DNA from: Sediminivirga luteola
GTDB lineage: Bacteria; Actinomycetota; Actinomycetes; Actinomycetales; Brevibacteriaceae
Direction: 5' to 3'
DNA length: 64,000 nucleotides
NCBI RefSeq assembly: GCF_014639315.1
Contig: NZ_BMFY01000008.1
Coordinates: 1-64,000, forward strand
The stretch's first letter is position 1. Each line of letters opens with the position of its first letter. The translations under genes and the position numbers were made by a program. The notes below the pieces were generated by a model that was not told where the DNA came from, made no database searches, and worked only from the letters and a program-made list of their open reading frames with translations. Shown here in pieces: positions 933-1,826 of the stretch.

Positions 933-1826
933 ATGCACGCCCACACCCCTTCCGGGGACCGTCGTCTGCGGGTCGGGTCGCTGTTCTCCGGATACGGCGG
1001 CCTCGACCTGGCTGTCGAGCACGTCTTCGACGCCGAGACCATCTGGTTCTCCGAGATCAACGAACCCGTCGCCCGCGTCTTCGCCCATCACTGGCCCGAC
1101 GCACCAAACCTGGGCGACGTCACCACCATCGACTGGAGCGACGTGCCGCCGGTGGACATCCTCTGCGGCGGCTTCCCTTGTCAGGACGTCTCGACCGTCG
1201 GCAAGCAGGCCGGCCTCGCGCCCGGCACACGCTCGGGACTCTGGTCGCACATGGCGACCGCGATCGAGGCACTGCAACCGGAGTTCGTGGTGATCGAGAA
1301 CGTGCGCGGTCTGCTCTCCGCACCGGCAGTCCGCAACCTCCCGGAAGGAGCCCCCGATGACCGATGCAACCCCGACAACGCAACTCCCGGTGGCGATGCG
1401 ACCGCAACCCTTCGCGAGGTGGAACCCGACCCGTGGGGTCTGGGAGACGAGCCAGCCCGACCTCTCCGGGCGTTTGGCGCCGTGGCTGGAGACCTGGCCG
1501 ACCTGCGGCGCGATGCGCGATGGATCGGCCTACTGGCAGCCGCCATCGGCGCTCCCCACCAGCGGTTCCGCATCTTCGTCCTCGCCCACCACCCTGTTCC
1601 GGACCCCGCTGGCCTCGGACTCCTCCCGCGGCGGCGAGAGCCTGGAACAGGTCCGAGCCCGTCAGGGCACGATCGCACTGTCGCATCAGATCATCGACCT
1701 GGCCCTGCACGGACCGCATGGCTCACCGAGGCAGAACGCCGAGTCGGAGACGCTGTGGTCCCTGATCGGGGACATCTTCGCCGCTGGGGGCTGGGTCACC
1801 GATCCGGCTCACGGCCTCACCGATAA
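933..1826 (+). CDS. C5 cytosine DNA methyltransferase, motifs I-VIII
   Basis: Transfers methyl groups from S-adenosylmethionine to cytosine. Visible motifs in order are the SAM-binding motif I (LRVGSLFSGYGGLD, about residues 11-24), catalytic Pro-Cys motif IV (CGGFPCQDVS, about 79-88), motif VI (VVIENVRGLLS) and a motif VIII-like GAPHQRFRIFVLAH (about residues 205-218). The frame then loses resemblance to the family and stops without the C-terminal motif X, which is found in the overlapping frame 1357-1911. A GGAG sits 5 nt before the ATG. Methyltransferases on conjugative elements often protect against host restriction. An intact enzyme probably needs both overlapping products or a frameshift. 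Confidence 0.8.
   Translation: MHAHTPSGDRRLRVGSLFSGYGGLDLAVEHVFDAETIWFSEINEPVARVFAHHWPDAPNLGDVTTIDWSDVPPVDILCGGFPCQDVSTVGKQAGLAPGTRSGLWSHMATAIEALQPEFVVIENVRGLLSAPAVRNLPEGAPDDRCNPDNATPGGDATATLREVEPDPWGLGDEPARPLRAFGAVAGDLADLRRDARWIGLLAAAIGAPHQRFRIFVLAHHPVPDPAGLGLLPRRREPGTGPSPSGHDRTVASDHRPGPARTAWLTEAERRVGDAVVPDRGHLRRWGLGHRSGSRPHR

Follow-up and report, generated by a model that had tools for sequence, protein, structure and literature searches.

Two overlapping frames and a deletion

The stretch of DNA analysed here—the window, 64,000 nucleotides from Sediminivirga luteola—carries close to its beginning two reading frames of the forward strand that overlap each other. The upstream one, frame A or alpha (positions 933–1826; 297 amino acids), is a C5-cytosine DNA methyltransferase holding in a single chain motif I (SLFSGYGG, SAM binding; 978–1001), motif IV (GFPCQ, with the catalytic cysteine; 1170–1184), motif VI (ENVRG; 1296–1310) and a motif VIII-like element (GAPHQRFRIF; 1548–1577), all of them as a previous reading made from the sequence only had proposed. 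Its match to PF00145 (dcm) is confined to residues 13–131 (E 1.8e-30), the one to phrog_363 covers residues 3–221 (E 2.8e-62), and the nearest solved relative is M.HhaI (E 6e-14). Frame B or beta (1357–1911; 184 amino acids), in +1 relative to A, is of the phrog_1008 type (E 9.9e-15) and has no model in either Pfam or NCBIfam. The Shine-Dalgarno, the downstream family segments and the motif X that the same reading had assigned to it were all recovered: AAGGAG (1345–1350) stands 6 nt ahead of the ATG, at the same place as in relatives, and is followed within the frame by WPTCGAMRDG at 1495, the segment TPLASDSSRGGE and the LGNG of motif X (1843–1854). The frame contains a dual-coded core, FARWNPTRGVWET...WPTCGAMRDGSAYW (1411–1536), the same DNA coding for A up to motif VIII, as well as the module LFRTPLASDSSRGGESLEQVRARQGTIALSHQIIDLAL (1594–1707), which is the best-conserved part of B and in which A is merely carried along.

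Motif IX is present in neither frame of the window, a point missed by the sequence-only reading. Comparison with the loci L142 (Brevibacterium casei) and L143 reveals the junction CGCTGGGG-GC-TGGGTCACC (1782–1800, forward strand), where 136 nt between CGCTGGGG and TGGGTCACC have been replaced by 2. This net loss of 134 bp (2 mod 3) at about 1790 took motif IX away and ended A at 1826; the final ~14 codons of A are thus out-of-frame sequence past the deletion, and the last ~40 residues of B—including motif X—are a fusion made by it. In the intact closest relatives both IX and X lie in frame A, and it is because of the deletion that X sits in frame B of the window; no other locus of the classified set has X in B without IX.

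Concerning the surroundings, the truncated N-terminus of a divergent TrwC-type relaxase occupies positions 52–732 of the reverse strand; such a relaxase adjoins the methyltransferase in 76 of the 80 relatives, but the one in the window stops at position 52, ahead of the HLHTH stretch that the relatives keep. With motif IX deleted and the adjoining relaxase truncated, the window copy is probably an inactive relic. The genome from which the window comes also harbours an intact nested paralogue, 70% identical (G000:C20), together with a third, decayed and stop-riddled methyltransferase copy (G000:C7:95700-96248). It should be noted that the paralogue belongs to a set of near-identical loci (L091, L092, L095, L096, L151 and G000:C20) from Propionicimonas, Microbacterium, Leifsonia, Leucobacter and the window's own genome, and such identity across genera suggests recent transfer.

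Layouts and parts of the pair across the family

Homologues were chosen by alignment of motifs I–VI of frame A, i.e. by its non-overlapping N-terminus alone, and the set is therefore blind to B. The sample comprises 80 bacterial loci and 80 viral contigs, sorted by regular-expression motif calls, which may have put a few divergent members in the wrong class. Two layouts are directly visible in it. In the split layout, typical of low-GC phages, A ends after motif VIII and B, about 200–490 amino acids long in viruses, carries motifs IX and X. In the nested layout of high-GC phages and conjugative elements, A spans IX–X and B lies inside it; among relatives of the same order, A has ~387 codons including IX (FVEWLMG) and X, and the nested B ends before IX. 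IX and X travel together, both being either in alpha or in beta. The bacterial loci have A intact through X in 52 cases out of 80 and IX–X in B in two, while A is broken in 23 and three run off the contig end. Viral loci below 60% GC include 36 split members and one nested, those above 60% GC 29 nested and three split. A split design, as put forward for the window, does exist in phages, where 36 of the 46 low-GC viral contigs have IX–X in the second frame. The window itself does not have that design, its beta holding X only and its intact relatives having IX–X in alpha.

Several individual loci depart from these layouts. In L094 and L111, insertions of one base near the stop of B convert the nested arrangement into the split one, reflecting either a real change or a sequencing error. 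Locus L007 (1027–2178) has a single frame of 384 codons that runs from A (I–VI) through the B core and module back to A (IX–X), motif VIII being lost; it looks like a decaying copy, yet it is a natural A-B-A fusion. The alpha of each of the class-level relatives L081, L082 and L086 shifts frame past motif IV and ahead of motif VI, all three at much the same position. An intein-like insert of ~350 residues (C...FVAGTSVLTHDG...FIAAGIVVHN/C) is found at the motif IV catalytic cysteine of gp50 of Propionibacterium phage B22 (L001, 1165–3264), and in the Gordonia phages Inspectinfecti, Ailee, Lennon and Sitar the methyltransferase match comes in two pieces with an annotated HNH/LAGLIDADG endonuclease gene beneath, which suggests a homing intron or intein.

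The split betas and the nested B proteins constitute one family (hhalign probability 99.8%, E 1.6e-28, 37% identity over 99 columns), built of a domain with WNP..W and WPxSGxxRxG and of subsequent '[L/F]xTPxAxD' (TP) modules, one in the clade of the window and up to several in phages. The betas of split members add WGxFxPAIxRWE, motif IX and motif X after these modules. In the split betas L183–L250, the segment from the B core to motif IX holds TP modules in varying combinations and numbers, much like the interchangeable recognition units of phage methyltransferases with several specificities. From their position between motifs VIII and IX, their repetition in split betas and their conservation, we infer that the TP modules serve in target recognition. 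A PDB sequence search from the split-beta profile brought no helpful match, and the AlphaFold model of the nested B is poor (pLDDT 48). For a split beta, the modelled C-terminus matched mostly C5 methyltransferases in Foldseek and VIA, but with low scores (E about 1, Z under 3), and these matches serve only as a hint that this end of the protein is methyltransferase-like.

Constraint in both frames and the start of frame B

The synonymous-rate check across the overlap, proposed together with the sequence-only reading, was run on A and found its fourfold sites depressed. Twenty sister pairs of nested genome loci differ at fourfold synonymous sites by 0.290 upstream of the overlap, by 0.127 in one half of it and by 0.036 in the other (Fisher p 1e-19 and 4e-36 for the two halves against upstream), so that the conservation of both frames noted earlier around 1440–1640 is correct and far above chance. 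Independent sister pairs gave 0.192 in the overlap against 0.457 outside it for split viruses (p 1e-18) and 0.189 against 0.460 for nested viruses (p 1e-16). The drop is 2- to 8-fold and located exactly in the overlap, the difference being back to normal (0.475) outside; at motif VIII of split viruses the sister pairs exhibit no significant drop (0.504, p 0.35). Along the gene, the 41 non-redundant nested bacterial loci show a sharp fall in fourfold variation over codons 136 to 272 and a recovery at IX–X; the 38 non-redundant split viral contigs show it over codons 120–165 alone, the extent of the B core, with its end at motif VIII.

The constraint on frame B itself is seen at the protein level. 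Over codons 206–257 of the nested genome loci, position 1 of A is the most variable (0.341) and position 3 the least (0.080), and at codons 211–240 of the nested bacterial loci the entropy of position 1 is the highest (1.1–1.4), position 3 being nearly fixed (0.15). With A free at position 1 and fixed at position 3, it is the frame-B protein that is constrained there, not A; an RNA-level constraint as the cause of the synonymous depression was rejected on this same pattern in the B-dominated stretch. When synonymous codons of A were shuffled, 77.5 frame-B stops were expected in split viruses and 49.4 in nested loci, none being observed in either, while the upstream control region has 105 observed against 109.5 expected. 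It should be pointed out that the split-set count is not fully independent, since openness of B to position 850 was part of the choice of that set, a selection of which the synonymous-difference test is free. The stop counts are in any case descriptive, the sequences sharing kinship, which the sister-pair test handles better. A stop in the B core was found in five of the 29 high-GC nested viral members, and some relatives thus manage without beta.

As for the start of frame B, almost all of 81 bacterial loci have an ATG or GTG whose position varies by hardly a codon and which is preceded at ~6 nt by AAGGAG or something very like it, for instance AGGAG. Many viral split members start with GTG or ATG directly after the ENVRG codons, with GAGG upstream, the signal being weaker. 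This conserved start, the synonymous depression in A, and the stop avoidance and protein-level constraint in B together support true dual coding of the methyltransferase pair for the family, whose carriers are actinobacterial mobile elements and phages.

A putative two-chain methyltransferase and its alternatives

Based on the above results, the locus probably originates from an overlapping gene pair in which a catalytic alpha and a conserved partner beta make up one two-chain methyltransferase, the copy in the window being damaged by the deletion. Catalysis would fall to alpha, the C5-methyltransferase chain encoded by frame A; beta, with translation beginning at a ribosome-binding site of its own within the alpha gene, would consist of the WNP..W/WPxSGxxRxG domain and one or more TP modules and may supply the target-recognition region. 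The two would most likely assemble into one enzyme, the IX–X segment being part of beta where the layout is split and of alpha where it is nested. In the window, the deletion that took IX and placed X on beta would have cost the enzyme its activity.

The main alternatives concern what frame B is and whether it is translated on its own. It is unlikely that B, though as real as A, encodes a small protein of its own outside the methyltransferase—a regulator or an anti-restriction factor, for example. This would suit the nested members, where A holds all catalytic motifs and B none, as well as the adjoining relaxase, and the model of the nested B is uninformative on this point; in the split class, however, B is fused to the IX–X that A lacks and must act with A there, and the TP module occupies the place of the variable, recognition region. 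A programmed +1 frameshift from A into B, yielding one polypeptide with no independent start of B, appears improbable. It is listed as a possibility for Corndog gp7/gp6 (PMC4351075), and since split A stops just past motif VIII and IX–X lie in B, a slip would yield a full-length enzyme; but the constrained B core (codons 121–165) lies upstream of the end of A, where a late slip would leave it untranslated, the Shine-Dalgarno and ATG are conserved at the start of B, and a nested A already having IX–X needs no slip. The conserved start signal and the constraint on B upstream of A's end thus point to two separately started proteins rather than to frameshifting as the only route.

The remaining two alternatives turn on the state of the window copy. 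An enzyme still active there as a split pair, with motifs I–VIII in alpha and the recognition module plus X in beta, is quite unlikely. Both frames are open, their motifs are intact except IX, and C5 enzymes tolerate bisection (PMC3404938), but IX is absent from both chains, X in B without IX being unique in the classified set, the neighbouring relaxase is truncated, and an intact paralogue exists at G000:C20. The opposite view, that a frameshift has disrupted one methyltransferase gene and the second frame is an incidental effect of GC-rich codon usage, is hardly credible for the family. The intact relatives do have one continuous A through IX and X, with the window short by 134 bp; A is broken in 23 of the 80 genome loci, and five high-GC nested viral members have stops in the B core. 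That account fits the likely state of the window copy, but not the family, in which B is constrained, has a conserved start and is free of stops in low-GC phages; its substitution pattern contradicts a by-product. The earlier preference for a split, dual-coded pair over a broken gene therefore stands as far as the family overlap is concerned and fails for the window copy, which has lost IX, has a truncated A and adjoins a truncated relaxase.

In the known two-chain enzyme M.EcoHK31I, the beta gene lies within that of alpha in a different reading frame, and the sizes are similar to those seen here. The likeness extends to two polypeptides forming one C5 methyltransferase (PMC3404938), but its small chain has only IX, with X and the predicted recognition domain in the large one, whereas in the present family—compared by motif layout—IX and X stay together and the recognition-like module is apparently in beta. 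In M.AquI, the other two-chain example (PMC3404938), alpha carries I–VIII and beta the distal variable region with IX–X, which is the layout of the split phage relatives and differs from the nested one of the window clade. A further precedent is the pair of the Cluster O mycobacteriophages, in which the second frame was found to have coding potential inside the first and two products, a frameshift, a hop or an intron were stated to be indistinguishable (PMC4351075). Like the alpha and beta of the window, this pair (Corndog gp7/gp6; Firecracker gp6/gp5) combines phrog_363 with phrog_1008 in a +1 overlap, of ~209 nt in Firecracker, where gp6 matches the former and gp5 the latter. It has IX–X in the second protein, whereas the mobile-element clade of the window keeps them in A with B fully nested, and the window copy has lost IX besides. 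The family has a +1 beta with its own start signal and both frames under constraint, a result that argues for two products over frameshifting in this methylase puzzle left open in 2015. A literature search, most subscription papers being outside its reach, turned up no study in which the two frames had been tested for constraint.

As a more tentative extension, somewhat short of an even chance, a widespread two-chain family may be envisaged in which the layout would follow base composition, since only GC-rich genomes can hold A open through the B region, IX–X would move between the chains via single indels, and recognition would reside in an overprinted protein of its own whose TP modules are exchangeable.

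Long same-strand overlaps selected in both frames have rarely been established in prokaryotes, and annotation tends to discard one gene of an overlapping pair. In Arthrobacter phage RedFox (gp42/gp43; L251, 1510–2415), the SEA-PHAGES annotation places the gp43 start, at 1798, about 290 bases late, dropping the conserved overlapping N-terminus of beta; in the Microbacterium plasmid NZ_CP072877.1 (L253, 2956–3423), the gene table has frame B alone, as the hypothetical protein WP_187326295.1, frame A being open through IX–X and absent from the table. New here are the constraint measured on both frames in phages as well as in mobile elements, the nested layout, and the apparent dependence of layout on base composition.
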